From Streptomyces mobaraensis NBRC 13819 = DSM 40847 (GTDB lineage: Bacteria > Actinomycetota > Actinomycetes > Streptomycetales > Streptomycetaceae): DNA of 64,000 nt. Shown in pieces: positions 830-39,141 of this stretch. Location of the stretch: assembly GCF_017916255.1 (NCBI RefSeq), contig NZ_CP072827.1, forward strand, positions 4,117,501 to 4,181,500, written 5' to 3'. Under the pieces are notes generated by a model. That model did not search any database. It saw only the letters and a list, made by a program, of their open reading frames with translations, and was not told where the DNA came from. Each line of letters starts with the position of its first letter. Position 1 is the stretch's first letter. The position numbers and the translations under genes were made by a program.

Positions 830-2287
830 ATGCCCAAAACAGTGCTCGTAATCGGTGGTGGGCCGGCAGGGTCCACTGCGGCCTCCTTGCTCAGCAAGGC
901 CGGAATGTCCGTCAAGCTGCTGGAGCGGGAGACTTTCCCGCGGTACCACATCGGCGAGTCGATCGCCTCTTCCTGCCGCACCATCGTCGATCTCGTCGGC
1001 GCGCTGGACGAGGTCGACTCCCGCGGTTACACGGTCAAGAACGGTGTGCTGCTGCGCTGGGGCAAGGAGGACTGGGCCATCGACTGGCCGAAGATCTTCG
1101 GCCCGGACGTGCGGTCCTGGCAGGTCGACCGCGACGACTTCGACCACGTGCTCCTGAAGAACGCGGTCAAGCAGGGCGCCGACGTCACCGAGGGCGTCAC
1201 GGTCAAGCGCGTGCTGTTCGACGGCGACCGCGCGGTCGGGGCCGAGTGGACGGACCCGGACTCCGGTGAGCTGGTCAGCGAGGAGTTCGACTACGTCATC
1301 GACGCCTCCGGCCGTACGGGCGTCATCTCCCGGCACCTGAAGAACCGCCAGCCGCACGAGATCTTCCGCAACGTCGCGATCTGGGGCTACTGGCAGGGCG
1401 GTTCCCTGCTGCCCACCTCGCCCACCGGCGGCATCAACGTCATCGGCGCCCCCGACGGCTGGTACTGGGTGATCCCGCTGCGCGGCGACCGGTACAGCGT
1501 CGGCTTCGTCTGCCACCAGGACCGCTTCCTGGAGCGCCGCAAGGAGCACGACGACCTGGAGGCGATGCTCGCCTCGCTGGTCCAGGAGAACCCGACCGTC
1601 CGCGACCTCATGGCGGAGGGCGAGTACCAGCCGGGCGTCCGGGTGGAGCAGGACTTCTCCTACGTCGCCGACAGCTTCCACGGCCCCGGCTACTACCTCG
1701 CCGGCGACGCCGCCTGCTTCCTCGACCCGCTGCTGTCCACCGGCGTCCACCTGGCGCTCTACAGCGGCATGCTGGCCGCGACGTCCGTGCTCGCCACGGT
1801 GAACGAGGACGTCACGGAGAAGGAGGCCGGCGCCTTCTACGAGTCGCTCTACCGCAACGCCTACCAGCGGCTGTTCACCCTGGTGTCCGGTGTGTACCAG
1901 CAGCAGGCCGGCAAGGCCGCCTACTTCGGCCTGGCCGACGCGATGGTCCCGGAGCGCGCCACGGAGGAGTACGAGCAGGTGGACGGCGCGGTGGCCTTCG
2001 CCGAGCTGGTCGCGGGGCTCGCCGACATCCACGACGCCGTCACCGGGACGCACGAGGACCACGCCCACCAGGCGCACACTCAGGCCGTCGCCCTGCCGGA
2101 GGACAACTCCGTCCGCCAGCTGCTCGCCGCGGCCGAGAACGCCCGCCTGATGGCGGAGGCCGGCACGCCGAGCGCGCCGGTCAGCGAGGCCCCCGGCAAG
2201 ATGGACGCCCACGACCTCTACGACCCCGCCACGGGCCTGTACCTGCGGACCACCCCGACCCTGGGGATCGGCCGGTCCAGGGCCTGA
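830..2287 (+). CDS. aviH: FAD-dependent halogenase (AviH-like)
   Basis: A 485-aa flavin-dependent halogenase, read as the enzyme that chlorinates the orsellinate-derived aromatic cap, as AviH does in avilamycin. The N-terminal GGGPAGS (residues 9-15) is the FAD-binding fold. WYWVIP (211-216) matches the W-x-W-x-I-P halogenase signature that blocks the monooxygenase reaction. Lys79, in LRWGKE, is placed like the catalytic lysine of phenolic halogenases. GDAACFLDPLLSTG (about 293-306) is the second flavin motif. GGGGGAG precedes the ATG. The roughly 90-residue tail with His-rich HEDHAHQAH is variable in this family. A converging gene lies downstream, separated by two strong hairpins. The substrate is inferred from the nearby orsellinate synthase. 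Confidence 0.9.
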   Translation: MPKTVLVIGGGPAGSTAASLLSKAGMSVKLLERETFPRYHIGESIASSCRTIVDLVGALDEVDSRGYTVKNGVLLRWGKEDWAIDWPKIFGPDVRSWQVDRDDFDHVLLKNAVKQGADVTEGVTVKRVLFDGDRAVGAEWTDPDSGELVSEEFDYVIDASGRTGVISRHLKNRQPHEIFRNVAIWGYWQGGSLLPTSPTGGINVIGAPDGWYWVIPLRGDRYSVGFVCHQDRFLERRKEHDDLEAMLASLVQENPTVRDLMAEGEYQPGVRVEQDFSYVADSFHGPGYYLAGDAACFLDPLLSTGVHLALYSGMLAATSVLATVNEDVTEKEAGAFYESLYRNAYQRLFTLVSGVYQQQAGKAAYFGLADAMVPERATEEYEQVDGAVAFAELVAGLADIHDAVTGTHEDHAHQAHTQAVALPEDNSVRQLLAAAENARLMAEAGTPSAPVSEAPGKMDAHDLYDPATGLYLRTTPTLGIGRSRA

Positions 2288-2300
2288 CCCCGCGACGGCT

Positions 2301-2340
2301 CCGGGCCGCGGGACTCGTGTCGCACGAGCCCGGGGCCCGG
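2301..2340. terminator. GC-rich hairpin after the halogenase gene
   Basis: An imperfect stem pairs 2301-2319 with 2323-2340 around a 3-nt loop, starting 14 bp past the halogenase stop. It has no T tract, as is usual for Streptomyces terminators. It is probably part of a bidirectional terminator block. Confidence 0.65.
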
Positions 2341-2350
2341 CCGCCACACC

Positions 2351-2463: not shown

Positions 2464-3408
2464 CTAGAGCGTCGAGACGGACGTCGAGACGGAAGCGGCC
2501 CGGCCGGCGTCGTCGAGCACCCGCTCCCAGCACGCGCGGACGCCCTCGGCCAGCGGGATCGCGGCCCGCCAGCCGAACTCGGCGTCGGCCCGCGCGACGT
2601 CCAGCCAGTTGCCCTGCCGGTCGAAGGAGCGGCCCCGCTCCCAGCGCACCGCGACGGAGCCGCCGGTCACCTCGGACACGATGTCCAGCAGGCCGCTCAG
2701 CGAAGTCGGCACGCCGGAGCCGATGTTGACCACGGAGGGCAGCCGGCCGCCGGCGATCCGGGTGCGCAGCGCGAGCAGGAACCGGGTGACGTCGTCGACG
2801 TGGACGTAGTCCCGGACCACGTGCGGATCGCCGAACACCCGCACGGGCTCGCCCCGGACGGCCGCCCGCAGCCAGTGCGGCAGCACGCCGAACCCGCGGA
2901 CGGGCCGCTGGCCGGGGCCGTAGACGTTACTCAGCCGCGCCACCACGGCGCGGACCGCGTCCCGGCGCCGGAACAGCTCGTGTTCCAGGCGGAGTTTGGC
3001 GTGCCCGTAGGCGGAGTCGGGGCGGGTCGGGGTGGTCTCCCGGTACGGCGGCGCGACCTCGGGCGCGTAGACCGCGCCGCCCGAGCCGGCCAGCACGAAC
3101 ACCGGACGGCGGCCCGCCGCGGCCAGCGCGTCCAACACCTCGATCAGGAGGCGGCGTTCGGCCTCCACCAGGTCGGGCCGCCGTTCGGCCAGGATCGGGC
3201 TCAGCCCGGCGGCCAGGAAGTAGACGATGTCGGCCTCGGCCAGTCCCGGTGCCGCGCGGCCGTCGGCCACCGGCGGGACCGCCCGGTTGAAGGCGGCCGG
3301 GACGCGCGGGTCCCCGGCGGTGAGGGCGGCCGTCAGCCGGGATCCGATGAAGCCGGTCGCGCCGATCACCGCCGTACGGCCGCCGGGCAGCGGGTGTGCC
3401 GTGGTCAC
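2464..3408 (-). CDS. NAD-dependent epimerase/dehydratase (NDP-sugar modifying)
   Basis: A 314-aa extended short-chain dehydrogenase. GATGFIGS near residue 17 is the Rossmann GxxGxxG motif. The catalytic YxxxK is YGHAK, and RDYVHVDDVTRFL and VNIGSG are typical of GalE/RfbB-like sugar-nucleotide enzymes. GTG at 3408 was chosen because it overlaps the TGA of the upstream HAD gene in a GTGA junction, which implies translational coupling. A longer in-frame reading would invade that gene. The substrate is presumably a dTDP-6-deoxyhexose or related NDP-sugar; which epimerisation or reduction it performs cannot be told from the sequence. Confidence 0.82.
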   Translation of the reverse strand: MTTAHPLPGGRTAVIGATGFIGSRLTAALTAGDPRVPAAFNRAVPPVADGRAAPGLAEADIVYFLAAGLSPILAERRPDLVEAERRLLIEVLDALAAAGRRPVFVLAGSGGAVYAPEVAPPYRETTPTRPDSAYGHAKLRLEHELFRRRDAVRAVVARLSNVYGPGQRPVRGFGVLPHWLRAAVRGEPVRVFGDPHVVRDYVHVDDVTRFLLALRTRIAGGRLPSVVNIGSGVPTSLSGLLDIVSEVTGGSVAVRWERGRSFDRQGNWLDVARADAEFGWRAAIPLAEGVRACWERVLDDAGRAASVSTSVSTL

Positions 3409-4130
3409 AGCGCACCGAGGCGCGCCAGGGGCGACGCGGCCAGCTCGGCGAGGGAGGCGACCCGCGGCACGTCGTCGTCCACCGGGGGCGCGGTGCGGAC
3501 CGCGCGCAGGGCGCGGTAGGCCCGGACGATGTCCGGGTGGACGCCCGGCGGGACGCGGTAGCCGTCCTCCGGCAGCACGAACACCGCCGGGCAGCCCAGG
3601 GCGCGGGCCGGCGCCACGTCGTGGTCGGCGCGGTTGCCCACCACGAGCAGGTCGGCGGGCGACAGGCCCAGCCGGTCCAGGGCGATGCCCAGCAGTCGCG
3701 GATCGGGTTTGGCGACGCCTTCGAAGCAGTCGAGGACGACCGTCTCCAGGACGGCGGTCAGCCCCCACGCGGCGAGCACGCCGGCGCACTCGGGCGGCTG
3801 GTTGGCGACCACGGCCGTCGGTATTTCGCGGGCGAGCGCCTTCGTCGCCGCAATGGCGCCGGGAATCTCCTGGGCCAGTTCGCCCCAGGCACGCAGGATC
3901 CGGACCCAGCTCTCGTCGGCGGCCGCCGAACCGAGAATGTCAGGCCGGCCCGCGGGGACTTTCCCGCCCAGATAGAAACGCTCGGTGTCATCGATGAAAT
4001 GTCGGAGGGTGACGCTCGGATCAGCGGTGACCGCGAGGTCGAAGGTCCCCTGAAGCCAAGCCAGTTCGAAAGGCTCGTCGTAGTAGATGACGCCTCCGAC
4101 ATCCAACGCAATCGCACTGTGTCCAGTCAT
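3405..4130 (-). CDS. HAD-superfamily hydrolase
   Basis: A 241-aa haloacid dehalogenase-like protein. Motif I is LDVGGVIY near the N-terminus, motif III is the Lys in GVAKPDP, and motif IV is VGNRADHDVAPA with its acidic residue. Such proteins are usually sugar or small-molecule phosphatases, so removal of phosphate from a sugar precursor is plausible but inferred. ATG 4130 follows GGGAG at usable spacing. A longer start at 4187 is possible but weaker. It is the first gene of a two-gene minus-strand unit with the epimerase and is divergent from the oxygenase at 4329. Confidence 0.8.
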   Translation of the reverse strand: MTGHSAIALDVGGVIYYDEPFELAWLQGTFDLAVTADPSVTLRHFIDDTERFYLGGKVPAGRPDILGSAAADESWVRILRAWGELAQEIPGAIAATKALAREIPTAVVANQPPECAGVLAAWGLTAVLETVVLDCFEGVAKPDPRLLGIALDRLGLSPADLLVVGNRADHDVAPARALGCPAVFVLPEDGYRVPPGVHPDIVRAYRALRAVRTAPPVDDDVPRVASLAELAASPLARLGAL

Positions 4131-4328
4131 AGCAACCCGCTCCCGTATTTCACATACGTCGCGCCGAGAGTATTGCACGCGTTTCACCGGGGTCGTCGTC
4201 CGAAGGCCGGGGAATCGCCTTCGGCGGCCAGAGTCTAGTCAATTCACTATTCTCCGGCTAAAGGCGATGCCCTATTCCGGGAAGGAACGTATCGTACTCG
4301 TCGAATACCTGACGAAAGGAGCCGCCGT
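4131..4328. promoter_or_regulatory. Divergent promoter region (HAD gene / oxygenase)
   Basis: A 198-bp AT-richer gap between divergent genes, with AGTCTAGTCAATTCACTATTC around 4232-4252. It must hold promoters for both directions. No individual -35/-10 pair can be defended. Confidence 0.4.
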
Positions 4329-5081
4329 ATGGGGGCCGTGGAAACCGTGATCGACGAGGAGCTCGTCGCAGCCTTCCGGGACGACGGATTCGCATCGCTG
4401 CCGCGGCTCGTGGACGACGCGGAGCTGGAGTGGCTGCGCGGGGTCTACGACCGTCTGTTCTCCGAGCACGCCGACTTCGCGACGGGCGACTACTTCGACA
4501 TCGCCGCCCGCCAGGATTCCGACGGGCCGGCCCGGCTGCCGCAGATCGTGCGCCCCGAGAAATTCGCGCCCGAACTGGTCGAGAGCGAGCACTTCAAGCG
4601 CTGCCGGGCGATCGCCGCGCGGCTGCTGGACGTTCCCGAGGACGAGCTCGACTTCTACGGGCACGCCATCCTGAAGCCGCCGCACTACGGCGCCGAGACG
4701 CCCTGGCACCAGGACGAGGGCTACATGGACCCGCGCTGGCACCGGCGCGGGCTCAGCGTGTGGACCACGCTGGACGAGGCCACGGTGGAGAGCGGCTGCC
4801 TGCACTACCTGCCCGGCGGCCACCTGGGCCCCGTCCTGCCGCACCGGCACATCGACGACGACGACCGCATCCGCGGGCTGGTGACCGACGCCGTGGACCC
4901 CGCCGCCGGGGTGGCCGTCCCGCTCGCCGCGGGCGAGGCCGTGGTGCACACCCTGCGGGCCCCGCACTACGCGGGCCCCAACGGCACCGGCCAGACCCGC
5001 CGGGCGTACGTGCTCGTCTTCATGGGCCCGGTCGAAGAGGTGGCCGACCCCGAGCCGCGCCCCTGGCTGGACACGCACTGA
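4329..5081 (+). CDS. Fe(II)/2-oxoglutarate oxygenase, orthosomycin type (AviO/EvdO-like)
   Basis: A 250-aa PhyH-superfamily oxygenase. The facial triad is visible as H-x-D in PWHQDEGY and the distal His in VVHTLRAPH. The 2-oxoglutarate-binding Arg is in QTRRAYVLVF. In avilamycin and everninomicin clusters, three enzymes of this size and fold are linked to oxidative cyclisation that makes the two spiro-orthoesters and the methylenedioxy bridge. This one is a candidate for one of those steps. GAAAGGAG precedes the ATG. It stands alone on the plus strand, facing a glycosyltransferase gene across a perfect hairpin. Which bond it closes is unknown. Confidence 0.8.
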   Translation: MGAVETVIDEELVAAFRDDGFASLPRLVDDAELEWLRGVYDRLFSEHADFATGDYFDIAARQDSDGPARLPQIVRPEKFAPELVESEHFKRCRAIAARLLDVPEDELDFYGHAILKPPHYGAETPWHQDEGYMDPRWHRRGLSVWTTLDEATVESGCLHYLPGGHLGPVLPHRHIDDDDRIRGLVTDAVDPAAGVAVPLAAGEAVVHTLRAPHYAGPNGTGQTRRAYVLVFMGPVEEVADPEPRPWLDTH

Positions 5082-5128: not shown

Positions 5129-6157
5129 TCACTTCCAGGTCACCCCGGAGAGCAGCCTGCGGTACTGCTCCACATACCGTCCGGCGATCTCCACGTGGCC
5201 CCACAGCCGGACCGCCTCGCGCCGGACCTCGTCGGGCGACGGCAGCCCGTCCAGCACCCGGCGGGCCTCCTCGGGCGTGAAGTCCGTCCCGTAGGCCACG
5301 ACCTCGCCGACCGACGGCACGATCTCCGCCAGGCAGCCGTTGCGCGTGCCCACGACGGGGGTGCCGCTCACCGCGGCCTCGGAGACCACCGTGGCGCCCG
5401 GTTCGCACCAGATGCCGCCCCACGGCCCCTCGACCGCCTGGGACATGGCGAGCACCGCGTGCGCGGAGGCGAGCAGGTCGAGCCGCCGTTCGGCGCCCAC
5501 CTCCCCGATCACCTCGACGGTCGAGCCGTACCGGGAGGTGATCTCCGCGAAGTAGTCGGGCTCCCAGGCCGGCCCGGCCAGCACCAGGCGCCGGCCGCTC
5601 GCCGCCGCGAACGCGGCGGCCTCCAGCGCCCCCTTGTGCGGCGAGATCCGGCCCATGAAGAGCAGGAAGTCCTCCTTGGGCACCGCGTCCGCGGCCGACC
5701 GGTAGCGGGCCGGGTCGACGGGGATCGGGATGACGGGCGCGTCGTCGCCGCCCCCGCAGTGCGCGCGCTGCGCCCGGGAACTGTAGGTGCAGCCCGCTGG
5801 GTTGACCGCCCGGGTGGTGAAGTGGTGCGAGCTGATGAACGCGGTGCCGGGACGCAGCCCGGCCGGGCCGATCAGGCCGCCGCTGTGGTCGTGGACCACG
5901 TCGACGTCCGACTCCCGCAGCCACCGCTGGATCTCCTCCGGCTCGCCGACCGGCACGACGGTCAGTCCCGGGGCCCCCGCCGGGCTGCCCGGGGCGCCCA
6001 GCAGGAAGACCTCGTGGCCGAGTTCGAGCAGCCCGTCCATCAGGTTGGCGACGACCCACTGGATCCCGCCGTACCCCTGCGGCGGCACGGTGATCCACTC
6101 GTCGCTCCCCGGGACCCGGAGCGGGATGTTGACCAGCGCGACCTTCAACGGCCTCAT
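5129..6157 (-). CDS. Glycosyltransferase, GT4 family (GT-B fold)
   Basis: A 342-aa GT-B glycosyltransferase, expected to act in the cytoplasm on an NDP-sugar. The N-terminal YGGIQWVVANLMDGL and the HDHSGG acceptor-side motif precede the C-terminal donor domain with LFMGRISPHKG and WCEPGATVVSEAAVSGTPVV, a relative of the GT4 E-x7-E motif. The ATG at 6157 overlaps the TGA of the upstream GT2 gene (ATGA), with AAGGGGG upstream, so the two glycosyltransferases are coupled. It is one of five glycosyltransferases that would build the oligosaccharide. Donor and acceptor cannot be deduced. Confidence 0.85.
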   Translation of the reverse strand: MRPLKVALVNIPLRVPGSDEWITVPPQGYGGIQWVVANLMDGLLELGHEVFLLGAPGSPAGAPGLTVVPVGEPEEIQRWLRESDVDVVHDHSGGLIGPAGLRPGTAFISSHHFTTRAVNPAGCTYSSRAQRAHCGGGDDAPVIPIPVDPARYRSAADAVPKEDFLLFMGRISPHKGALEAAAFAAASGRRLVLAGPAWEPDYFAEITSRYGSTVEVIGEVGAERRLDLLASAHAVLAMSQAVEGPWGGIWCEPGATVVSEAAVSGTPVVGTRNGCLAEIVPSVGEVVAYGTDFTPEEARRVLDGLPSPDEVRREAVRLWGHVEIAGRYVEQYRRLLSGVTWK

Positions 6158-7161
6158 CGGGAAGCCCCCTTCGCGCCCCGGGCCCGCAGCGCGCGGTGGC
6201 TCCGGCGCCGGGACCGCATGGTCGGCACCCGGCCGGCGAGCCAGCGCAGCGCCTCGGCCGTCTCCCGCGCCCCCGTCGCGGCCGGCACGCGGCCGACGAC
6301 GCTGTGGCCCCTGAGGTCCGCCACCAGCCAGCGCCCGGCCAGCCGGGCGGCCTTCGCCGGATGCCAGTCGATGTCCGTCAGGAGGTAGTAGTAGCGGTTG
6401 CGCCGCATGTGGACCCGGCTGTACTCGCTGGGGACGGCGGCGCCTCCGCCGCCCCGGTGCTGGATGCCCAGGTCCAGGTGGAGCGCCACCCGCCAGCCCG
6501 CCCAGCGGGCCCGGCGGCACAGGTCGGTCTCCTCGTAGTAGGTGTGCAGCACCTCGTCGAAGAGCCCGGTCTCGCGGAGCATCGCGGTCCGGGCGAACAG
6601 CGCCGAACCCTGGACGTAGGCGTGCTCCAGCGTGCGCGGGGCCCGGCCCTCGGCGGGGCCGGCGGTGGAGGGGTGGGCGATCCCGTCGCCGGCGAAGGCG
6701 TGCTGCTCGCCCAGCCACAGGACCGTGTGCGTCCAGTCGTTGAACTCGTCGAGCGCCGTGGAGTCGGCGTCGTAGCGGTACTGGAGCGGGCCGAGGATGC
6801 CGTACTCCGGCCACTCCTCGGCCACTTCGGTGAGGCCGCGCACCAGGCCGGGCGGGGTCCAGGTGTCGGGGTTCACGAGGAACACGTAGTCCGCGCCGGA
6901 CTCCAGCGCGCGGCGCATGCCGACGTTGTTCGCCCCGGCGAAGCCCAGGTTGCGGTCGTTGCGGATGACCGTCGCCCGGGGGTACTTCTCCCGCACGTGC
7001 TCGACGCTGCCGTCCGCCGAGTCGTTGTCGACGTAGCAGACCTCCAGGTCGATGCCGGTGGTGTCGCTGTCCAGCAGGGAACCGAGGCACCGGTCCAGCC
7101 AGCGCAGCTCGTTGGTCCCGACGGTGATCGTCACGACCTTCGGCCGGCGCTCGGCGTCCAT
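6154..7161 (-). CDS. Glycosyltransferase, GT2 family (rhamnosyltransferase-like)
   Basis: A 335-aa GT-A glycosyltransferase. ITVGTNELRWLDRCL starts the nucleotide-binding domain, followed by CYVDNDSADGS, NLGFAGANNVG and the metal-binding NPDTWTPPG. HTYYEETDLCRRARWAG is the conserved acceptor-side motif of rhamnosyltransferase-like GT2 enzymes. ATG 7161 has GGGAG only about 3 bases upstream. A GTG at 7182 is an alternative. It overlaps the GT4 gene downstream and follows the E1 beta gene by 38 bp. It probably transfers a 6-deoxy or methylated hexose to the growing chain. Confidence 0.83.
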   Translation of the reverse strand: MDAERRPKVVTITVGTNELRWLDRCLGSLLDSDTTGIDLEVCYVDNDSADGSVEHVREKYPRATVIRNDRNLGFAGANNVGMRRALESGADYVFLVNPDTWTPPGLVRGLTEVAEEWPEYGILGPLQYRYDADSTALDEFNDWTHTVLWLGEQHAFAGDGIAHPSTAGPAEGRAPRTLEHAYVQGSALFARTAMLRETGLFDEVLHTYYEETDLCRRARWAGWRVALHLDLGIQHRGGGGAAVPSEYSRVHMRRNRYYYLLTDIDWHPAKAARLAGRWLVADLRGHSVVGRVPAATGARETAEALRWLAGRVPTMRSRRRSHRALRARGAKGASR

Positions 7162-7199: not shown

Positions 7200-8162
7200 T
7201 CACTTCAGGACGGCGCGGATCGCGTCGGTCAGCTGGTCCCCGTTGGGCAGCAGCGCCTGGTCGAGCACCAGCGCGTAGGGGATGACCGCGCCGTCCGGCC
7301 GGGTCACCCGGCGGGGCGGGGCCACCAGGTCGAACTGCTCGGCGGCGGTGGCCAGGACCTCGCCGGCGAAGCCGCTCATCCGGTTGGCGTCGTCGATCAC
7401 GACGAGCCGGCCCGTCTTCCCGGCCGACGCCCGGATCGTCTCCCAGTCCACCGGGTAGATGGTGCGCGGGTCCACGACCTCGATCGACGCCTCGCCGGCC
7501 ATCGCCTCCGCGACGGCCAGGGCGGTGTGCACGCACTGGCCGGTGGCGACGACGGTCACGTCCTCGCCCGCGCGGTGGATCCGGGCGGAGCCGAGCGGTA
7601 CCGGGCCGAGCTCGCCGGTCACCTCCTCGACCGTGCCCATCAGCGCGCTCGGCGCGAAGACGGCCACCGGGTCGGGGTCGCGCAGCGCGGAGAGGAGCAG
7701 GCCGTAGGCGTCCGAGGCGGTGGCGGGCAGCACGGTCTTGATGCCGACGTGCGCGAACAGGCTGTAGGGGTGGTCGGAGTGCTGGCCGGCCATGCCGGAG
7801 CGCGAACCGGAGCCCGGCACCAGGTAGGTGACGGGGACCTCCACCTGCCCGCCGGTCATCAGCGAGAACTTGTGCGCCTGGTTGGCGATCTGCTCGAAGA
7901 CCAGGTACAGCAGCGACGGGATCTGGTACTCCACGACCGGGCGCTGCCCCGCCATCGCCGCGCCGGTGGCCAGGCTGGTGAACGCCTGCTCCGACAGCGG
8001 CGTGTCCACGACGCGCCCGTCGCCGAAGCGCTCGTGCAGGCCCTTGGTGGTCTGGGTCAGCCCGATCCGCACGTCTTCGCCGAAGACGCAGACGCGGTCG
8101 TCCCGCGCCATCTCGTCGTGGAGCGCCTGGTTCAGCGCGGTGATGTACGCAAGTGCACCCAT
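7200..8162 (-). CDS. aviB2: Pyruvate dehydrogenase-like E1 component, beta subunit (AviB2-type)
   Basis: A 320-aa transketolase-like beta subunit. The start ALNQALHDEMARDDRVCVFGEDV, DTPLSEQAF and the C-terminal transketolase domain (DPRTIYPVDWETI) are typical of pyruvate/acetoin dehydrogenase E1 beta. With the alpha subunit it should use thiamine diphosphate to decarboxylate pyruvate and transfer a two-carbon acetyl unit. In avilamycin the AviB1/AviB2 pair is proposed to add the acetyl branch of the eurekanate ring. The ATG shares one base with the TGA of the alpha gene (TGATG). No E2 or E3 subunit is nearby, which argues against a metabolic pyruvate dehydrogenase complex. Gene name by homology. 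Confidence 0.85.
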   Translation of the reverse strand: MGALAYITALNQALHDEMARDDRVCVFGEDVRIGLTQTTKGLHERFGDGRVVDTPLSEQAFTSLATGAAMAGQRPVVEYQIPSLLYLVFEQIANQAHKFSLMTGGQVEVPVTYLVPGSGSRSGMAGQHSDHPYSLFAHVGIKTVLPATASDAYGLLLSALRDPDPVAVFAPSALMGTVEEVTGELGPVPLGSARIHRAGEDVTVVATGQCVHTALAVAEAMAGEASIEVVDPRTIYPVDWETIRASAGKTGRLVVIDDANRMSGFAGEVLATAAEQFDLVAPPRRVTRPDGAVIPYALVLDQALLPNGDQLTDAIRAVLK

Positions 8163-9139
8163 CAGATCATCACTCCGGGCCGTGTCGTCGTGCCGTCGGC
8201 ATACAGGTGGTCCAGCGCCTCGTGGGGCTCGGGGGCCCGGCCCGCGCGGGCGAACTCCACGGCCTCGTCGATGAGCGCGGTGATCTCGGCGTCGACCGTG
8301 CGGACGGTCGCGGCGTCCACCCGGGTGCTCTGGGTGCGCAGCGGGTCGCGGGCCCGCCAGTCGCCGACCTCGGCGTCGTCCCGGTAGTTGAGCGCCACCT
8401 GCTCCTCGTAGGAGTGGTGGCCGTGGAACCGGTACGTCCGGCACTCCAGGTAGGCCGGGCCGCCGCCCGCGCGGCAGCGCTCGACGGCCTGGGCGGCCGC
8501 GTCGGCGACGGCCTCGGCGTCCATCCCGTCCACCGCGCGCGCCGCCAGGCCGAACGCGGCCGCCCGCTCCACCGGGTCGCCGGCCAGCGCCCGGCCGACC
8601 GGCAGGCTGGTCGCGTAGCCGTTGTTCTCGCAGACGAACACCACCGGGAGCCGCCACAGGGCCGCGAGGTTGAACGCCTCCAGCACCACGCCCTGGCTGA
8701 GCGCGCCGTCGCCGAAGAAGGCGACCGCCACCCGGTCCTCGCCGCGCTGCTGGAAGGACCAGGCCGCGCCGGCGGCGATGGGCGCACCCGCGCCGACGAT
8801 GCCGTTGGCGCCGTAGACGCCGAGGCCGACGTCGGCGGCGTGCATCGAGCCGCCGCGGCCCCGGTTGAGGCCGTCGGTGGTGCCGAGCAGCTCGGCCAGC
8901 ATCCGCTTGGGGTCGGCCCCCTTGGCGAGGACGTGGCCGTGCCCGCGGTGGGTGCTGGCGACGACGTCGTCCTTGGTGAGCGCCGCGCAGACGCCGGCGG
9001 CCACCGCCTCCTGGCCGATGTAGGGGTGGATGCCGCCGACGATCTCGCCGGTGAGCGACATCGCCAGGCAGCGTTCCTCGAATTCTCTGATCAGGCGCAT
9101 CGTCCGGTAGAGCCGGACGGCACGTGACTCGGCGCCCAT
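8162..9139 (-). CDS. aviB1: Pyruvate dehydrogenase-like E1 component, alpha subunit (AviB1-type)
   Basis: A 325-aa alpha subunit. The thiamine-diphosphate motif runs from GDG (143-145) to NN (172-173), and GGSMH near 97-100 and YRFHGHH are conserved in E1 alpha proteins. ATG 9139 is preferred because GAAGGGGG sits about 8 bases upstream. ATG 9166 lies within a 17-bp tandem duplication and lacks a ribosome binding site. It pairs with the beta subunit directly downstream (TGATG junction). The inferred role is acyl-branch formation on a cluster sugar rather than central metabolism. Confidence 0.85.
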   Translation of the reverse strand: MGAESRAVRLYRTMRLIREFEERCLAMSLTGEIVGGIHPYIGQEAVAAGVCAALTKDDVVASTHRGHGHVLAKGADPKRMLAELLGTTDGLNRGRGGSMHAADVGLGVYGANGIVGAGAPIAAGAAWSFQQRGEDRVAVAFFGDGALSQGVVLEAFNLAALWRLPVVFVCENNGYATSLPVGRALAGDPVERAAAFGLAARAVDGMDAEAVADAAAQAVERCRAGGGPAYLECRTYRFHGHHSYEEQVALNYRDDAEVGDWRARDPLRTQSTRVDAATVRTVDAEITALIDEAVEFARAGRAPEPHEALDHLYADGTTTRPGVMI

Positions 9140-9160: not shown

Positions 9161-9194
9161 GGTCATCGGCTGAGCGTGGTCATCGGCTGAGCGT
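9161..9194. repeat. 17-bp perfect tandem duplication at the permease stop codon
   Basis: The 17-bp unit GGTCATCGGCTGAGCGT occurs at 9161-9177 and again at 9178-9194. The second copy is the last codons and stop of the ABC permease gene. The first copy is the gap to the E1 alpha gene and creates a second, probably false, ATG at 9166. Confidence 0.9.
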
Positions 9195-15401: not shown

Positions 15402-16407
<1,006 letters not shown>

Positions 16408-32500: not shown

Positions 32501-33031
32501 GTGGTAGTGCGGCGCGACTTCATTGTGCGGCGGTGGCCTTTCGGTGCCGCGGTACGTGATGCGTCGGATGCTCTCAGGGGATGCAAGGACCACAGGCTCA
32601 TACGGGGGGCCACTTTGCTGTATTCCGAATGCGACACGGGTCATTCCGTCGGCGATGTCGGGGACGCCGGCGATGCCGACGACCGAGTCCTCGACGAGGA
32701 GCGGTTTCCCTGGCTGGAAGGGCTGGGCCAGGTGCATCTGCTCTCCGAGCGCGAGCTCCAGGTCTTCTCCCTGCTGAGCCATGGCTACTCCAACCGCGAG
32801 ATCGCGGCGTTCCTCGGGGTCACCGAGCGCACCGTCAAGGCGCATATGGCGCAGATCCTCGCGAAACTCAGGGTCGAGTCCCGCCTGCAGGCCGGACTGG
32901 TCGCCTTCGCCCACGGGCTCACGGGCTCGCCGACGCCTCCGCCGCCCCACCGTGGCGCTGTCTCCGGCGGTGCCGTCTCCGGTGTCCTGCCGGGGTCAAC
33001 CTCCCTGCACGGTAAGGGAGTCGGCCGCTAG
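32501..33031 (+). CDS. LuxR-family transcriptional regulator
   Basis: A 176-aa frame with a canonical C-terminal-type LuxR HTH (LSERELQVFSLLSHGYSNREIAAFLGVTERTVKAHM, about 79-114). The N-terminal 75 residues match nothing known to me and may not all be translated. GTG 32501 has a poor ribosome binding site, and a start near 32617 is possible. The C-terminus is Pro/Gly/Ser-rich. Its TAG shares the palindrome CTAG with the stop of the convergent SGNH gene. It is the second LuxR-type regulator of the cluster. Confidence 0.7.
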   Translation: MVVRRDFIVRRWPFGAAVRDASDALRGCKDHRLIRGATLLYSECDTGHSVGDVGDAGDADDRVLDEERFPWLEGLGQVHLLSERELQVFSLLSHGYSNREIAAFLGVTERTVKAHMAQILAKLRVESRLQAGLVAFAHGLTGSPTPPPPHRGAVSGGAVSGVLPGSTSLHGKGVGR

Positions 33032-34098
33032 ACCCGCGCCAGCCCGGGCACCAGCTCCTCGACCTTGCGCCGGAAGGCGGCCGCGAGCAGATCGTGCCCC
33101 TCCTGGTTGAAGTGCAGCGGGTCGAGGTGCCTCGGCTCCACGTACAGGTGGGCGGTCTCGGGGCCGGCGAGGCTCGGACCGTGGACGTAGTGGAGGTTCT
33201 CGTCGCCGTCCGCGCGCAGCAGCTCGACCACCTCGCGGGTCTGCTCCCGGACCTCCACCAGCGACAGGTACCCGTCCCCCTTCAGCGGGTCGTGCCACGG
33301 GGAGTGGTGGTGCGACGCGATGAGCAGGGGCGTCGAGGGGTGCCGCTCCCGGATGATCCGGATCATGCCGATCAGGTTGGGCCGGTAGGTGAACTGGTTG
33401 AGGGCCCGGGTCCCGTAGATGTTGATGCCGACCATGCACGTGATCAGATCGGCGGGCAGATCACGGAGCAGTGTCGCGAAGAGCGGCTGGAGGTAGCAGC
33501 CCGCCCCGATCGCCAGTGACGTGAGATCCAGGCCGAGTTCCGTGGCGACGGTCGCGGTCCAGTTCCGGCTGGGCGACAGGGCCCCCCGGCCCTGGGACTC
33601 GGAGGAGCCGTAGTGGACCCAGCGGGGCGCGCTGGTGGTGTCCGCGCTCACCTCGGCGTCCGCCGGCACCTCCACCCCGTGCAGGGTGAACTGGTTCAGA
33701 CAGGGCAGCCACAGCTCCACGAGACGGCCGGCGCCGGCGCCCGGCAGGGATCCGACGTGGCAGGTGTGGATCCCCTGGTCGGTCACCAGCGGGAGACTGG
33801 CGACCGGCTTGCCGTCCACGCGCACGTCCACCTGCGGGTTCTCGGGCGGACCCGGCATCTCGTGGGCGGGCCGGGCGGCGTACCGGAAGGCGAACCCCGC
33901 CGCGTCCGTGCGGAAAGTGATCCGTACCCCCGACGGCATCGCGGCGCGCCCCACGCTGCCCTCGGGAAAGAACAGATGCCGTTCCTGAAAAGGTATTCGC
34001 CAGGGCAGTATTCCGCCGTCGACCTCCTGGAGGGAGACCGCACCGCGATAGGTCAGTACCGGGTCGTCCGCCCGAATGAGGCGCCCCGCTTCCAACAT
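33028..34098 (-). CDS. SGNH/GDSL-type hydrolase with N-terminal beta domain
   Basis: A 356-aa protein. An N-terminal region of about 160 residues looks like a beta-sandwich, followed by an SGNH domain. The nucleophile block is VHYGSSESQG, block III is GINIYGT and the catalytic block is LDPLHFN (DxxH). No signal peptide is seen. ATG 34098 follows AGGTGACGG. A similar two-domain protein lies at 46055-47215. Inside an orthosomycin cluster it could remove or exchange an acyl group on a sugar (avilamycins carry short acyl esters). This is inference. Confidence 0.75.
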   Translation of the reverse strand: MLEAGRLIRADDPVLTYRGAVSLQEVDGGILPWRIPFQERHLFFPEGSVGRAAMPSGVRITFRTDAAGFAFRYAARPAHEMPGPPENPQVDVRVDGKPVASLPLVTDQGIHTCHVGSLPGAGAGRLVELWLPCLNQFTLHGVEVPADAEVSADTTSAPRWVHYGSSESQGRGALSPSRNWTATVATELGLDLTSLAIGAGCYLQPLFATLLRDLPADLITCMVGINIYGTRALNQFTYRPNLIGMIRIIRERHPSTPLLIASHHHSPWHDPLKGDGYLSLVEVREQTREVVELLRADGDENLHYVHGPSLAGPETAHLYVEPRHLDPLHFNQEGHDLLAAAFRRKVEELVPGLARV

Positions 34099-34271: not shown

Positions 34272-35156
34272 GTGGACAAGAAAGAGACCGCGGACCGGGG
34301 CACTCCCGGGCAGCGTCCCATGGTGGTGGCGGTCTGTGCCTTCCGTCTGGAGAACGTGCGCCGGCATCTGCGGCACAACCTCGACCAGTTGAACGGCGAC
34401 GAATACCTGGTCCTGCTGGACCGGCCGGTCACCCCGGAGGCCGAGAAGGTCGCCGCCCAGGTGAACGAGGGCGGCGGGACGATGCGCGTCCTCGGCGCCA
34501 CGAACGGGCTGTCGGCGTCCCGCAACACGGTGCTGCGCGAGTACGCCGGGCGGCACATCCTGTTCGTCGACGACGACGTGCGCCTCGACGCCTCCGCCGT
34601 GGACGCCGTCCGCGCCGCGTTCCGCGCCGGGGCGCACGTGGTCGGGGCCCGGCTGCGACCGCCGCACGACATCGGCCGGCTGCCCTGGTTCCTGTCCTCC
34701 GGCCAGTACCACCTCGTCGGCTGGCACCGAGCCCGCGGTCCCGTCAAGATCTGGGGCGCCTGCATGGGCGTCGACGCCGACTTCGCCCACCGCCGGGGCC
34801 TCACCTTCGACCTGGGCCTCAGCCGCACGGGCGGCAACCTGCAGTCCGGCGAGGACACCACCTTCATCGCGCTGATGAAGGAGGCGGGCGCCGTGGAGCG
34901 CCTGCTGCCCGAGCACGCGGTCGTCCACGACATCGACCCCGGCCGGCTGACCCTCCGCTACCTCCTGCGCAGGGCCTACTGGCAGGGGCACTCGGAGGCG
35001 CGGCGCCACCAGTCCGTCGCGGGTCTCCGCAAGGAGCTGGACCGGCACCGCACCGCCCCCGAGTCCCGCTGCACCCCCCTGCTGTTCTGCCTGTACGGCG
35101 CCGCCACCGCGATCGGTGTCGGCCACGGCCTCCTGCTGCGCCTGCGCGGCAAGTGA
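34272..35156 (+). CDS. Glycosyltransferase, GT2 family
   Basis: A 294-aa GT-A fold transferase. VVAVCAFRLENVRRHLRHNL starts the domain, and NGLSASRNTVLREYAGRHILFVDDDVRLD contains the DxD-type metal site. CMGVDADFAHRRG and SGEDTTFIALMKEAG are acceptor-side features. The last 20 residues are hydrophobic (CLYGAATAIGVGHGLLL), which suggests membrane association. GTG 34272 with TGGAG six bases upstream is preferred over the long open frame from 34179. It is divergent from the SGNH gene. Confidence 0.78.
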   Translation: MDKKETADRGTPGQRPMVVAVCAFRLENVRRHLRHNLDQLNGDEYLVLLDRPVTPEAEKVAAQVNEGGGTMRVLGATNGLSASRNTVLREYAGRHILFVDDDVRLDASAVDAVRAAFRAGAHVVGARLRPPHDIGRLPWFLSSGQYHLVGWHRARGPVKIWGACMGVDADFAHRRGLTFDLGLSRTGGNLQSGEDTTFIALMKEAGAVERLLPEHAVVHDIDPGRLTLRYLLRRAYWQGHSEARRHQSVAGLRKELDRHRTAPESRCTPLLFCLYGAATAIGVGHGLLLRLRGK

Positions 35157-35207: not shown

Positions 35208-36176
35208 TCAGGCCCGCTGCCGGACGGGCGAGCCGGAGCGGACCCAGTCGTAGGTGGCGGCGATGCCCTTCTCCAGCGGGACGGACGCGGTCCAGCCCAG
35301 GTCGGCGGCGGCGCGGGAGACGTCCAGCGTGCTGTGCTGGATCTCGCCCGGCCGGCGGGGCGCGAAGCGGGGACGCAGCTCGCGGCCCGAGGCGGCGGCG
35401 ATGTGGTCGAGGACCTCCAGCACCGTGCTCCCCTTGCCCGTGCCGATGTTCCAGACGCCGGGCGCGGGATGCCGGAGGGCGGCGAGGAACGCCTCGGCGA
35501 CGTCGCCGACGTACACGTAGTCGCGGGTCTGCGTACCGTCGCCGAACACGGTGGGCACCTCGCCGTCGCGGGCCAGCCCGCAGTGGATGGCGATGACGCC
35601 CGCCTCTCCGCCCGGGCTCTGCCGGGGCCCGTACACATTGCCGAGCCGCAGCACGCTGTGCCGCGTTCCGTGCAGCCGGTTGAAGAGGCCGACGTACTGC
35701 TCCGCGCAGTACTTGGCGGTGCCGTAGGGGGCGCCCGGACCGGGCAGCGTGTCCTCGCCGGTCGGGACCGGGACGCCCTCCCCGTAGAGGGCCCCGCCGG
35801 TGGAGGCGAACACCACCCGCGCCCCGACGGCCCGGGCCGCCTCCAGCACGTTGATCGTCCCCTCCACGTTGACCCGCGCGTCGGCGGCCGGGTCGGCCAC
35901 CGAGACCCGGACGTCGATCTGCGCCGCGAGGTGGCAGACGGCGTCGGGGCGTACGGACCGCACCGCCTCGCCGAGGGCGGCGGCGTCGGCCACGTCGACG
36001 CGGCGCAGCTCCGCCCGCGGGTCCAGCCGCTCCGGATCGCCGGTGGTCAGGTCGTCCAGGACGGTGACCTCGGCCCCGGCCTCCAGAAGGGCGTCGACGA
36101 GGTGCGAGCCGATGAAGCCCGCCCCTCCGGTCACCAGCAGACGCGTTCCGTCCGGGAACCCCGGGAACATGGACAT
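35208..36176 (-). CDS. NAD-dependent NDP-sugar epimerase (GalE-like)
   Basis: A 322-aa extended SDR. VTGGAGFIGSHLVDALL, HLAAQIDVRVSVADP, ASTGGALYG, the YGTAK pair and RDYVYVGDVAEAFL are typical of UDP-glucose/dTDP-sugar 4-epimerases. ATG 36176 follows AGGAAGG. An in-frame ATG at 36170 is the alternative. It is the fifth epimerase/dehydratase-type gene in the cluster besides RfbB. It starts divergently from the AviRa resistance gene, with a 244-bp AT-richer gap between. Confidence 0.8.
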   Translation of the reverse strand: MSMFPGFPDGTRLLVTGGAGFIGSHLVDALLEAGAEVTVLDDLTTGDPERLDPRAELRRVDVADAAALGEAVRSVRPDAVCHLAAQIDVRVSVADPAADARVNVEGTINVLEAARAVGARVVFASTGGALYGEGVPVPTGEDTLPGPGAPYGTAKYCAEQYVGLFNRLHGTRHSVLRLGNVYGPRQSPGGEAGVIAIHCGLARDGEVPTVFGDGTQTRDYVYVGDVAEAFLAALRHPAPGVWNIGTGKGSTVLEVLDHIAAASGRELRPRFAPRRPGEIQHSTLDVSRAAADLGWTASVPLEKGIAATYDWVRSGSPVRQRA

Positions 36177-36420: not shown

Positions 36421-37173
36421 GTGAGTTCGTACCGCCACGCCGTCGAGCGGAGCGACAGCTCCGATCTCGCCTGCGGCGTCGTGCTCCACTCCGCGCCGGG
36501 CTACCCCGCCTTCCCCGTCCGCCTGGCGACCGAGATCTTCCTGCGGGCGCAGGCCAGGCTCCCCGACGACGGCCCGGTGACGCTGTGGGACCCGTGCTGC
36601 GGCAGCGGCTACCTCCTGACGGTGCTGGGGCTGCTGCACCGCCGCGCGCTGCGGCGGGTGATCGCCTCCGACGTGGACCCCGCCCCGCTGGAACTCGCGG
36701 CCAAGAACCTCGCCCTGCTCTCCCCCGGGGGACTGGCCGCGCGCGAGGCCGAGCGGCGTGAGCAGAGCGAGCGCTTCGCCAAGCCCGCGTACCAGGAGTC
36801 CGCGGATGCCGCCCGCAGGCTGCGGGACCGCCTGGAGGCGGACGGCGGCGCGCTGCCGTACGCCGTCGGCGCCGCGGACGTCTTCGATCCGCGTTCGCTG
36901 TCCGCCGTCGTGGCCGGGGCCGCGCCCGACGTCGTCCTGACCGACCTGCCGTACGGCGAGCGGACGCACTGGGACGGCGCGGTGCCCGGGCAGCCGGTGA
37001 CCGGCATGCTGCGCTCGCTCGCGTCGGTGCTCCCCGCGCACGCGGTGATCGCCGTCACCGACCGCAGCCGGAAGATCCCGGTGGCTCCGGTGCCCGCTCT
37101 GGAGCGGCTGAAGATCGGGACGCGGTCGGCCGTGCTGGTCCGGGCGGCCGACGTGCTGGACGCCTGCCCCTGA
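36421..37173 (+). CDS. aviRa: 23S rRNA (guanine) methyltransferase, avilamycin resistance AviRa
   Basis: A 250-aa Rossmann-fold methyltransferase whose length and sequence match AviRa as I know it (SSYRHAVER start, DLACGVVLHSAPGYPAFP, LWDPCCGSGYLLT at 55-67). TDLPYGER (174-181) is the catalytic [DN]-L/P-P-Y motif of base N-methyltransferases. AviRa methylates a guanine in the avilamycin-binding region of 23S rRNA and protects the producer. GTG 36421 follows GGGAG. With AviRb at 38284 it marks the pathway as orthosomycin-type. Confidence 0.93.
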   Translation: MSSYRHAVERSDSSDLACGVVLHSAPGYPAFPVRLATEIFLRAQARLPDDGPVTLWDPCCGSGYLLTVLGLLHRRALRRVIASDVDPAPLELAAKNLALLSPGGLAAREAERREQSERFAKPAYQESADAARRLRDRLEADGGALPYAVGAADVFDPRSLSAVVAGAAPDVVLTDLPYGERTHWDGAVPGQPVTGMLRSLASVLPAHAVIAVTDRSRKIPVAPVPALERLKIGTRSAVLVRAADVLDACP

Positions 37174-37294
37174 GCGCCGGGCGGGAACGGCGTGCCGGGT
37201 CCCGAACGGTCTGAGGCGCTGGGATTTTCCCCAGTTCCTTTTCCCTAGACTCACCACGCCAGGATGGCTTCACGTGTGTTCTTGGGAGGGCGGA

Positions 37295-38326
37295 ATGGCG
37301 GGAGCCCGGGTGCTCATAGCCGGGAATTTCCATTGGCAGGCGGGGTTCAGCCAGACCGTCGCCGCCTATGTGGAAGCGGCGGGTGAGGCGGGCTGCGAGG
37401 TCCGGGTCAGCGGTCCCCTTTCGCGAATGGACGAGCAGATCCCGCGACACCTGCCGGTGGAGCCGGACGTGCGGTGGGGAACGCACCTGGTGTTCATGTT
37501 CGAGGCCCGGCAATACCTCTCCGACGAGCAGATCGAACTCGCCGGCTCCATTCCCCGCCACCGGCGCCTGATCATCGATTTCGACGGCCACTGGGGCGGT
37601 GTCGCCACCGCCGGCGACAGTTCCGTCGGCACCCACCCGGTCGAGCAGTGGCAGCGGCTCTACTCCACGCTCGGCGATCTCGTCCTCCAGCCCAAGGCGG
37701 GCCCCCTGCCGGACGGGGCGGAGTTCTTCCCGTGTTTCGGAATGCCCCGCCTGGTACGGCACCCCCTGGAACTCGGCCGCGAGCGGGACTGCGACCTCCA
37801 GTACATCGGCAGCAACTGGGGGCGGTGGGAGCCGTTCCTCGAGGTCGTGGAGGCCGCCCGGCGGGCCCGGCTGCGGCGGATCCGGGTCTGCGGACGGTGG
37901 TGGGACGGGGAGACCTGCCCCGGGTTCGAGGACATCACCTCCGCCGAGCCGGAACGGCTGGCCGGCGTCGACGTCCGGCCGCCGGTGCCGTTCGGGCACG
38001 TCGTCACGGAGATGGGCCGGTCGGTGATCACGCCGGTGCTGGTCAGCCCGCTCGTCGCCGACACCGGGCTGCTCACGGCCCGGGCCTTCGAGACCCTCGC
38101 GTCCGGCTCGCTGCCGGTGCTGCCGGCCGCGGCGGAATTCATGTCCTTCCTGTACGGCGGGGGAGCCGAACCCCTGATGCTGGGCCCGGACCCCGCCGCG
38201 ACGCTGGGCCGGCTGGCGGGCGAGTTCGAGCGGCACGCGGAACTCGTGGGACGGATCCAGGAGCAGGCGCGCGCCCGCTACAACTACCCTCGGCTGCTGG
38301 GGGAGTTGCTGGCCTTCTTCCGCTGA
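37295..38326 (+). CDS. Glycosyltransferase, GT-B (CgeB-like)
   Basis: A 343-aa protein. AGNFHWQAGFSQTVAAYVEAAGEAGCEV opens the N-terminal domain. DLQYIGSNWGRWEPFLEVVEAARRA and TGLLTARAFETLASGSLPVLP in the C-terminal half match CgeB/spore-protein-like glycosyltransferases. ATG 37295 has GGGAGGG upstream. It lies between the two rRNA methyltransferase genes, and its 3' end overlaps aviRb tail to tail by 43 bp. Probably the fifth sugar transferase of the pathway. Donor unknown. Confidence 0.75.
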   Translation: MAGARVLIAGNFHWQAGFSQTVAAYVEAAGEAGCEVRVSGPLSRMDEQIPRHLPVEPDVRWGTHLVFMFEARQYLSDEQIELAGSIPRHRRLIIDFDGHWGGVATAGDSSVGTHPVEQWQRLYSTLGDLVLQPKAGPLPDGAEFFPCFGMPRLVRHPLELGRERDCDLQYIGSNWGRWEPFLEVVEAARRARLRRIRVCGRWWDGETCPGFEDITSAEPERLAGVDVRPPVPFGHVVTEMGRSVITPVLVSPLVADTGLLTARAFETLASGSLPVLPAAAEFMSFLYGGGAEPLMLGPDPAATLGRLAGEFERHAELVGRIQEQARARYNYPRLLGELLAFFR

Positions 38327-39141
38327 CCGATCCGCTGCCGGACGGTCTCGTAGAGGACCGCGGTCGCGGCGTTCGCGGCGTTCAGCGAGCTCGCGGAGCC
38401 GGTCATCGGGATGCTGACCGTGTGGTCGCACAGCCCGCGCCAGGTGTTGCTGAGCCCGGCCGTCTCGTTGCCGACCAGCAGCAGGGTCGGCTGGGTGAAG
38501 TCGAAGTCGAAGACGTCGCACTCGCCGTCCTCGTCCGTGCCGACCAGCACGATCGGCGTCCCGCCGGCCCGGCGGGCCTCCACCCACTCCATCACCTCGG
38601 CCGGCGACGGCACCCGGACGGCGGGCAGGGAGAACAGCGAGCCGGTGCTCGACCGGACCGACTTGGGGTCGTAGACGTCGGCGGCGTGCCCGGCCACGAT
38701 CAGGCCGTGGGCGCCCAGGGCGTCGGCCGAGCGGATGATGCTGCCGATGTTCCCCGGGCTGGTCGGCCGGTCGAAGAGCACGCCCAGGAAGTCCTCCCGG
38801 ACCGGGATCCGGCCCAGGTCGTCGGCGGGCATCTCCACGACGGCGATGACCTCGGGCGGGGCCTCGCTCTTCTCGCCCAGCTCCATCATCAGGTCCGAGG
38901 CCATCGCGACCTGCTCGGTCCGCACCGTGCGGAGGAGTTCCTTCGCCCACTTCGAGAGCTGCCGCTGCCCGTCGAAGAGGAGCGTGTGCACGGGCCAGCC
39001 CTGCTCCACCGCGAGCGAGATCGGGCGGACGCCCGTCACCAGGAACTCACCGGCACGCGTCCGCTTGTTGCGGTTGCCGAGCAGCGCCTGCCACTGCTGG
39101 AAGCGAGCGTTGCGTGAGGTGATCCGCCGAGCCGCCGGCAT
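38284..39141 (-). CDS. aviRb: 23S rRNA 2'-O-ribose methyltransferase, avilamycin resistance AviRb (SpoU family)
   Basis: A 285-aa SpoU-type methyltransferase. SpoU motif 1 is NIGSIIRSADALG (131-143), motif 2 is VGNETAGLSNTW (223-234) and motif 3 is IPMTGSASSLNAANAA (245-260). The N-terminal SRNARFQQWQALLGNRNKR region is the RNA-binding part. AviRb 2'-O-methylates a 23S rRNA uridine near the avilamycin site. ATG 39141 follows GGGAG; GTG 39147 is an alternative. It is convergent with and overlaps the CgeB-like glycosyltransferase. It is the last cluster gene before the tRNA. Confidence 0.92.
   Translation of the reverse strand: MPAARRITSRNARFQQWQALLGNRNKRTRAGEFLVTGVRPISLAVEQGWPVHTLLFDGQRQLSKWAKELLRTVRTEQVAMASDLMMELGEKSEAPPEVIAVVEMPADDLGRIPVREDFLGVLFDRPTSPGNIGSIIRSADALGAHGLIVAGHAADVYDPKSVRSSTGSLFSLPAVRVPSPAEVMEWVEARRAGGTPIVLVGTDEDGECDVFDFDFTQPTLLLVGNETAGLSNTWRGLCDHTVSIPMTGSASSLNAANAATAVLYETVRQRIGQRKKASNSPSSRG

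Follow-up and report, generated by a model that had tools for sequence, protein, structure and literature searches.

A predicted avilamycin-type orthosomycin gene cluster in the chromosome of Streptomyces mobaraensis

A stretch of 64,000 nucleotides from the chromosome of Streptomyces mobaraensis NBRC 13819 = DSM 40847 (assembly GCF_017916255.1; one contig, NZ_CP072827.1, of 7,574,085 bases), at positions 4117501-4181500 and hereafter called the window, holds, apart from its left end, a block of genes that we read, at a probability of about 0.93, as a complete cluster of avilamycin/curamycin type for making an orthosomycin and for self-resistance to it. The block is about 45 kb long, running from about -5.9 to 39.1 kb (a minus sign marks coordinates to the left of window position 1), and comprises 40 called genes (W23-W62) and two small LuxR-type open reading frames (ORFs); genes were called by codon usage, and their start positions are approximate. 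A left border at 830, as given by the initial annotation, is wrong: six genes of the same cluster (W23-W28) lie outside or across the left window edge and reach about -5913; all six have orthologs in Streptomyces curacoi.

Gene content and relation to known clusters

The marks of the orthosomycin class occur together here: oxygenases of the AviO1, EvdO1 and EvdO2 groups, the genes for dichloroisoeverninic acid (polyketide synthase (PKS), KAS III-like protein, halogenase and O-methyltransferase), and both AviRa and AviRb. Each gene type that the initial annotation had named from the letters (PKS, KAS III-like, halogenase, sugar-nucleotide, C-methyltransferase, radical SAM, E1 pair, AviRa, AviRb) was recovered by profile or sequence search, and the similarity it expected of the oxygenases and rRNA methyltransferases to orthosomycin proteins is borne out by five solved-structure matches of 377.9-554.4 bits. 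Its three PhyH-type oxygenases are all present, but the count is four, the fourth (W28) crossing the left window edge; HxD...H is found in all four. The overall assignment to the orthosomycins agrees with gene content, gene order and identity to solved orthosomycin enzymes, and can be narrowed to the avilamycin subgroup. Some of these names are our own assumption: PDB entry 4xaa is titled 'Putative oxygenase', and 1o9g and 1x7o 'rRNA methyltransferase', and we take them to be AviO1, AviRa and AviRb, respectively, as we take the W.W.IP motif to be indicative of a halogenase. The Pfam AviRa family backs the identity of the 1o9g match, and the available text of PMC8234114 backs that of 4xaa by placing AviO1 among the solved orthosomycin oxygenases. 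By gene types, the avilamycin list in Table 2 of that source, as far as it is available, agrees with the inventory here (six methyltransferases, E1 pair, AviX12, AviM/N/H, ABC pair, resistance genes). The six methyltransferases are W27 and those at 12129, 13914, 14673, 18466 and 29181; five glycosyltransferase-like proteins are encoded at 5129, 6154, 16408, 34272 and 37295, the last below the profile cut-off. Avilamycin clusters have two positive regulators, AviC1 and AviC2, for which the two LuxR-type ORFs are candidates.

For comparison, an alignment of 15 EvdO1-like proteins, out of 160 found, was used to scan named genomes. The scan gave 64 loci, and the 7 at 71-88% identity were used, with 70-120 kb fetched around each, while 57 others (36-47%, one split match) were left out. 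The eight clusters compared were thus those of the window, S. curacoi DSM 40107 (NZ_KQ947988.1), the Streptomyces sp. metagenome-assembled genome (MAG) Bin2.31 (JABFVM010000208.1), Micromonospora sp. ATCC 39149, Spongiactinospora, M. rubida, Dactylosporangium roseum and Catenuloplanes. Each of the 40 genes has a reciprocal best match both in S. curacoi, with order and strands alike and 85-96% identity, and in the MAG, collinear and on matching strands at 82-97%. With 40/40 genes collinear and strand-matched in S. curacoi, chance is no serious rival. Over 13 concatenated core proteins the window cluster is 89.9% identical to S. curacoi and 89.4% to the MAG, against 66.0-68.9% to the five other clusters, and a FastTree tree places it as sister to S. 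curacoi plus the MAG (support 0.998 for the pair and 1.000 for the trio). The S. curacoi homologs of AviO1 and AviRa are identical to 4xaa at 222/223 residues and to 1o9g at 244/250, which makes this cluster a suitable proxy for that of the avilamycin strain Tu57. Avilamycin-type clusters are already known, and to judge by its genes the present one is distinct, differing by about 10% in core proteins. Such clusters are rare: an EvdO1-like protein (E <= 1e-100) is encoded in 3 of 392 sampled congeneric genomes, that of the window included; AviRa is encoded in all eight genomes compared.

The everninomicin-type cluster of ATCC 39149 has BLASTP matches for 35 of the 40 genes and a core 68.9% identical, but differs in its rearranged order and in carrying a nitrosugar module. 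Its genome yielded no E1 alpha at E<=1e-60 (found in 7 of the 8 genomes searched) and no full-length AviRb, the best matches being one over 91 residues (54% identity, containing a stop) and a relative at 33%, each at a great distance from the cluster. D. roseum (G006:C1, about 5744458-5791994) carries an orthosomycin-like cluster with AviO1-, EvdO1- and EvdO2-like and fourth oxygenases, an AviX12-like enzyme, AviRa, AviRb and sugar genes; orthologs of the genes for the orsellinate PKS, the KAS III-like protein, the halogenase, the O-methyltransferase and the nitrosugar are lacking from the 120 kb fetched. It alone among the eight pairs sugar and resistance genes with no orsellinate or halogenase genes, a point that bears on the initial annotation's statement that the whole combination is known only from avilamycin/everninomicin pathways. 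Between its AviRb and AviO1 lie genes for a methyltransferase, two ketosynthase-type proteins, an acyl carrier protein (ACP), an AMP-binding ligase and an aromatic amino acid lyase, and further on those for a KAS III-like protein and a ketoreductase-type short-chain dehydrogenase/reductase (SDR); a 49% AviN relative is encoded elsewhere in the genome. The product of this cluster may be an orthosomycin whose polyketide acyl group derives from a cinnamoyl unit.

Table 1. Features of the cluster block and its right border, in window coordinates
Feature	Position	Strand	Evidence
W23-W27: SDR; Gfo/Idh-type oxidoreductase; NDP-hexose 2,3-dehydratase; GDP-mannose 4,6-dehydratase-like; O-methyltransferase (W27)	left of window		profile scan
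PhyH-type Fe(II)/2-oxoglutarate oxygenase, fourth (W28)	-225..626 (1..626 inside window)	-	Pfam PhyH 24.4 bits, cut-off 22
FAD-dependent halogenase, AviH-like	830..2287	+	Pfam Trp_halogenase 110 bits; W.W.IP motif; orthologs in 7/8 clusters, not D. roseum
SDR-type sugar enzyme	2464..3396	-	Pfam Epimerase
HAD-type hydrolase	3405..4187	-	Pfam Hydrolase
PhyH oxygenase, EvdO2-like	4329..5081	+	4xab (EvdO2) 377.9 bits
Glycosyltransferase, GT4-like	5129..6157	-	Pfam Glycos_transf_1, Glyco_transf_4
Glycosyltransferase, GT2-like	6154..7161	-	Pfam Glycos_transf_2
E1 beta-like subunit (AviB1/B2-type two-carbon transfer)	7200..8162	-	Pfam Transket_pyr, Transketolase_C
E1 alpha-like subunit (AviB1/B2-type)	8162..9139	-	Pfam E1_dh 239 bits
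ABC-2 transporter permease	9180..9977	-	Pfam ABC2_membrane
ABC transporter ATPase, DrrA-like	9974..10945	-	Pfam ABC_tran, DrrA1-3_C
Radical SAM enzyme, AviX12-like	10942..12132	-	Pfam Radical_SAM; CxxxCxxC; 8/8 clusters, 71-96%
Methyltransferase	12129..12965	-	Pfam Methyltransf_23
PhyH oxygenase, EvdO1-like	12959..13903	-	4xbz (EvdO1) 518.6 bits
FkbM-type methyltransferase (W42)	13914..14630	-	Pfam Methyltransf_21
Junction corresponding to the site of an aldo-keto reductase gene in S. curacoi; gene missing here	14631..14672	.	
Methyltransferase (W43)	14673..15401	-	Pfam Methyltransf_11
SDR sugar enzyme, candidate UDP-glucuronate decarboxylase (AviE2-like)	15398..16411	-	Pfam Epimerase; sub-threshold NCBIfam UDP-xylose synthase/ArnA match
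Glycosyltransferase, EryCIII-like	16408..17700	-	Pfam EryCIII-like_C/N
PhyH oxygenase, AviO1-like	17748..18419	-	4xaa 463.9 bits; 207/223 residues identical
Methyltransferase paired with AviO1-like oxygenase	18466..19182	-	Pfam Methyltransf_31
SDR-type sugar epimerase/reductase	19272..20300	-	Pfam Epimerase
dTDP-glucose 4,6-dehydratase, AviE1-like	20379..21419	-	NCBIfam TIGR01181 396.7 bits, cut-off 365.1
Glucose-1-phosphate thymidylyltransferase-like, AviD-like	21452..22519	-	Pfam NTP_transferase
Iterative type I PKS, orsellinate synthase AviM-like	22711..26565	-	Pfam KS, AT, PKS_DH_N, PP-binding (ACP)
KAS III-like, AviN-like	26562..27599	-	Pfam ACP_syn_III; 74-96% in 7/8 clusters
Sodium/hydrogen exchanger-type membrane protein	27752..29167	-	Pfam Na_H_Exchanger
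Sugar C-methyltransferase, AviG1-like	29181..30404	-	Pfam Methyltransf_13/14
Putative SDR fragment-like sugar enzyme	30401..31084	-	no Pfam match; orthologs in S. curacoi, MAG, Spongiactinospora
Cupin protein	31093..31503	-	Pfam Cupin_1
Small LuxR-type regulator ORF, candidate AviC1/C2	31967..32206	+	Pfam GerE 42.6 bits
LuxR-type regulator ORF, candidate AviC1/C2	32501..33031	+	Pfam GerE 62.2 bits; open frame, true start uncertain
SsfX3-like GDSL acyltransferase (W57), candidate	33028..34098	-	3skv (SsfX3) 296.5 bits
Glycosyltransferase, GT2-like	34272..35156	+	Pfam Glycos_transf_2
SDR-type sugar epimerase	35208..36176	-	Pfam Epimerase
AviRa, 23S rRNA methyltransferase (self-resistance)	36421..37173	+	Pfam AviRa 246.5 bits; 1o9g 463.5 bits, 216/250 identical
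Putative fifth glycosyltransferase	37295..38326	+	Pfam Glyco_trans_1_2 below cut-off; 8/8 clusters
AviRb-like SpoU 23S rRNA ribose methyltransferase (self-resistance)	38284..39141	-	1x7o 554.4 bits
tRNA-Thr (CGT), borders block	39270..39346	-	ARAGORN

Assignment to the avilamycin subgroup and alternative readings

According to the available part of PMC8234114, a nitrosugar separates the everninomicins from the avilamycins. The ATCC 39149 cluster contains a module, EVN_61-67, of an EryCIII-like glycosyltransferase, an acyl-CoA-dehydrogenase-like oxidase, a DegT-type aminotransferase, a C-methyltransferase, a 3,5-epimerase, an SDR and a methyltransferase, a gene set that fits the everninomicin nitrosugar. 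The oxidase is presumably the nitrososynthase. Reciprocal matches to six of the seven genes were found in Spongiactinospora, M. rubida and Catenuloplanes, with the 3,5-epimerase matched only in Spongiactinospora; no reciprocal match to any of the seven was found in the clusters of the window, S. curacoi, the MAG or D. roseum. In whole-genome searches the oxidase has matches of 70-81% in the three other module-bearing genomes and, at E<=1e-20, none in the genomes of S. curacoi, the MAG or D. roseum. Because the module is absent and the block is collinear with that of S. curacoi, its gene content assigns the window cluster to the avilamycin subgroup. The AviB1/AviB2-type E1 pair is present too, but is not diagnostic of this subgroup, since four clusters outside it also carry the pair.

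An everninomicin-type cluster with a nitrosugar at ring A would share the core genes, and 66-69% identity over the 13 core proteins is what such clusters have in common with this one; with none of the EVN_61-67 genes matched in the cluster, however, and an oxidase relative of only 38%, distant from it, where three other module-bearing clusters have 70-81%, this alternative is refuted at this locus unless the distant homolog feeds the pathway, and we consider it extremely improbable. That relative (G000:C1:7546749-7547945) lies near the chromosome end, 3.4 Mb from the cluster, and could belong to another sugar-nitro pathway or be an ordinary acyl-CoA dehydrogenase relative. Only marginally less remote is the possibility that the cluster is of avilamycin type but silent or degenerate, so that no finished orthosomycin is made. 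One S. curacoi gene, an aldo-keto reductase, is indeed missing here, and the cluster is known here from its genes; yet all 40 genes are full-length against their orthologs as far as BLASTP coverage shows and share 85-96% identity with those of S. curacoi, neither LuxR-type ORF is interrupted, and an ortholog of the missing reductase was likewise not found in Spongiactinospora, M. rubida or D. roseum.

Gene content, orthology, gene order, subgroup and genomic placement are established here; the enzyme activities and the product are predictions. Several points nevertheless weigh against reading them as a complete avilamycin-type cluster. The published avi list, in the available part of PMC8234114, has four glycosyltransferases and three PhyH proteins, compared with five glycosyltransferase-like and four PhyH proteins here. 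The S. curacoi cluster stands in for that of S. viridochromogenes Tu57 in all comparisons. Its aldo-keto reductase is missing from the window, and the compound made may therefore differ from avilamycin A. The 38% oxidase relative at 7546749 and the fact that the case is made from genes count on the same side.

A literature search turned up no report that we recognised as an earlier account of this strain's cluster, which is weak evidence of absence. The S. curacoi cluster described by Bergh and Uhlen is reportedly a spore-pigment-type polyketide cluster. The 'curamycin' clusters in the available part of PMC9149447, which cites Bergh and Uhlen (1992), were not counted as a report of an orthosomycin.

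Proposed pathway, its conserved oxygenase and its variable genes

The route that we propose follows the published avilamycin scheme, as given in the available part of PMC8234114. The AviM-like PKS would make orsellinate, which the AviN-like protein would pass on, and the O-methyltransferase and halogenase would convert it to a dichloroisoeverninic-type ester. Enzymes of dTDP-, GDP- and UDP-sugar metabolism would supply the sugars (among them we infer an AviE2-like UDP-glucuronate decarboxylase at 15398), the E1 pair would add the two-carbon branch of the terminal eurekanate, and the radical SAM enzyme would epimerise one sugar. Glycosyltransferases would then build the chain, and the AviO1-, EvdO1- and EvdO2-like oxygenases would close two orthoesters and a methylenedioxy bridge; the SsfX3-like acyltransferase would most likely add the short acyl ester typical of avilamycins. 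The ABC pair would export the compound, for this subgroup expected to be a chlorinated heptasaccharide, while AviRa and AviRb would methylate the producer's own 23S rRNA.

The available literature names three oxidative bridges, and four PhyH proteins are encoded here. The fourth, W28, is present in all eight clusters at 68-94% identity to that of the window, and its residues H117, D119 and H229 are kept in all eight; among 32 homologs the two histidines do not vary, and conservation of D119 is 90% or more. An AlphaFold model (predicted local distance difference test 91, predicted template modelling score 0.90) has the Fe(II)/2-oxoglutarate oxygenase fold, and Foldseek matches are led by GriE and HygX, with SnoK also matched, at template modelling scores of about 0.5, where many such enzymes tie. 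HygX belongs to the hygromycin B pathway, and both classes have orthoesters, according to the available part of PMC8234114; hygromycin B is, however, an aminocyclitol antibiotic, and the 40 genes here have no Pfam match to a cyclitol-forming family. In a tree of 36 proteins the eight cluster W28 proteins fall in a 19-member branch (100/100), apart from 17 more general homologs. W28 is kept both in D. roseum, without orthologs of the PKS, KAS III-like protein, halogenase and O-methyltransferase, and in ATCC 39149, without E1 alpha, so that its substrate is probably a part of the sugar core common to these clusters, and neither the aglycone nor the two-carbon branch.

In avilamycin A the lyxose bears a short acyl ester, which is not known from the everninomicins, and SsfX3 is an acyltransferase. 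W57, which matches SsfX3 over residues 4-347 and carries an SsfX3_N domain and a GDSL fold at full length, is proposed for the lyxose ester on these two grounds; we lean modestly towards its adding an avilamycin-type short acyl ester to a sugar. It is intact in three of the eight clusters, all from Streptomyces: those of the window, S. curacoi (87%) and the MAG (85%). No homologs were found at E<=1e-15 in the genomes of Micromonospora ATCC 39149, M. rubida or D. roseum, and relatives of 34-35% lie elsewhere in those of Catenuloplanes and Spongiactinospora. The Spongiactinospora nitrosugar-type cluster (concatenated 58243-58773) contains a broken remnant of W57, in three pieces and two frames at 52-58% identity. 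In Streptomyces sp. NPDC091272, Streptosporangium and Kitasatospora sp. NPDC048239, homologs of 58-83% are encoded on contigs whose lengths equal exactly those of the contigs with EvdO1-like proteins. Outside the cluster, at 46055-47215, the window encodes another GDSL protein that matches SsfX3_N weakly.

Between its orthologs of W42 and W43, S. curacoi has an aldo/keto reductase gene (Pfam, 243 bits). In the window 42 bases separate W42 from W43, and genome-wide the best relative is 35-38% identical; the MAG retains a remnant of 65 residues, matching residues 3-67 of 330 at 69%. Relatives of 59-66% are found at the Catenuloplanes and ATCC 39149 loci, and at most 33% matches in the DNA fetched from Spongiactinospora, M. 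rubida and D. roseum. In the avilamycin-type subgroup the reductase gene, gone from the window and reduced to this remnant in the MAG, has thus been lost or is on its way to being lost. A tentative reading, which we hold to be possible but somewhat less probable than not, is that the strain makes an avilamycin congener other than avilamycin A, one or more of whose sugars differ or owe their reduction to a different enzyme, and that W28 performs a further oxidation on the sugar core common to the orthosomycins.

Genomic placement and neighbouring loci

Directly outward of the left end lies holB (DNA polymerase III delta'-type, W22), with topoisomerase I two genes beyond; at the right end the AviRb-like gene is followed by a tRNA-Thr gene and a TAP-like hydrolase gene, W63. 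The distance from holB to W63 is 45,943 bases. In a sample of 20 relatives, 12 of them congeneric, both genes were found (E<=1e-80) in 11 of the 12 congeners, the twelfth (G008, 79% complete) having no holB match, and they are 68-340 bases apart in 10 of these 11; in three of the eight relatives from other genera, those for which gaps were computed, the corresponding gap is 182, 297 and 1,044 bases. As holB and W63 adjoin in 10 of 11 comparable congeners, the block looks inserted at a conserved holB/TAP-like junction. The remaining congener has 21,361 bases between the two genes (G012:C1:3366437-3387797), possibly another island at the same junction.

The tRNA-Thr beside AviRb had suggested integration of a tRNA-borne element. 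This was set aside for want of a tRNA-overlapping repeat: between -8000..-3000 and 38000..40000 there is no exact direct repeat of at least 12 bases that overlaps the tRNA (the longest, of 13 bases, lies outside it). No integrase is among the 40 called genes. Synteny supports insertion, but not a tRNA-borne mechanism. The flanks of the S. curacoi and MAG clusters, in the fetched slices, differ from those of the window and resemble each other: on one side the start of the same protein, presumably a YchF-type GTPase, is found in both.

Elsewhere in the window, two divergent IucA/IucC-type siderophore synthetase genes occupy 49921-53358; within the first of the two, and on the other strand, ARAGORN places a tRNA-His at 50000-50092 that is perhaps a miscall. 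At 56158-58427 a cytochrome P450 gene adjoins one for a type III polyketide synthase.

Avilamycin-like antibiotics are sugar chains that act by blocking bacterial ribosomes. The ribosomal site to which orthosomycins bind is unlike that of other antibacterials in clinical use, according to the available part of PMC8234114. A third, distinct avilamycin-type cluster allows the core and variable genes of this family to be separated, and it points to two genes in particular: the fourth oxygenase, kept in all eight clusters, and the candidate acyltransferase, intact only in the three from Streptomyces.

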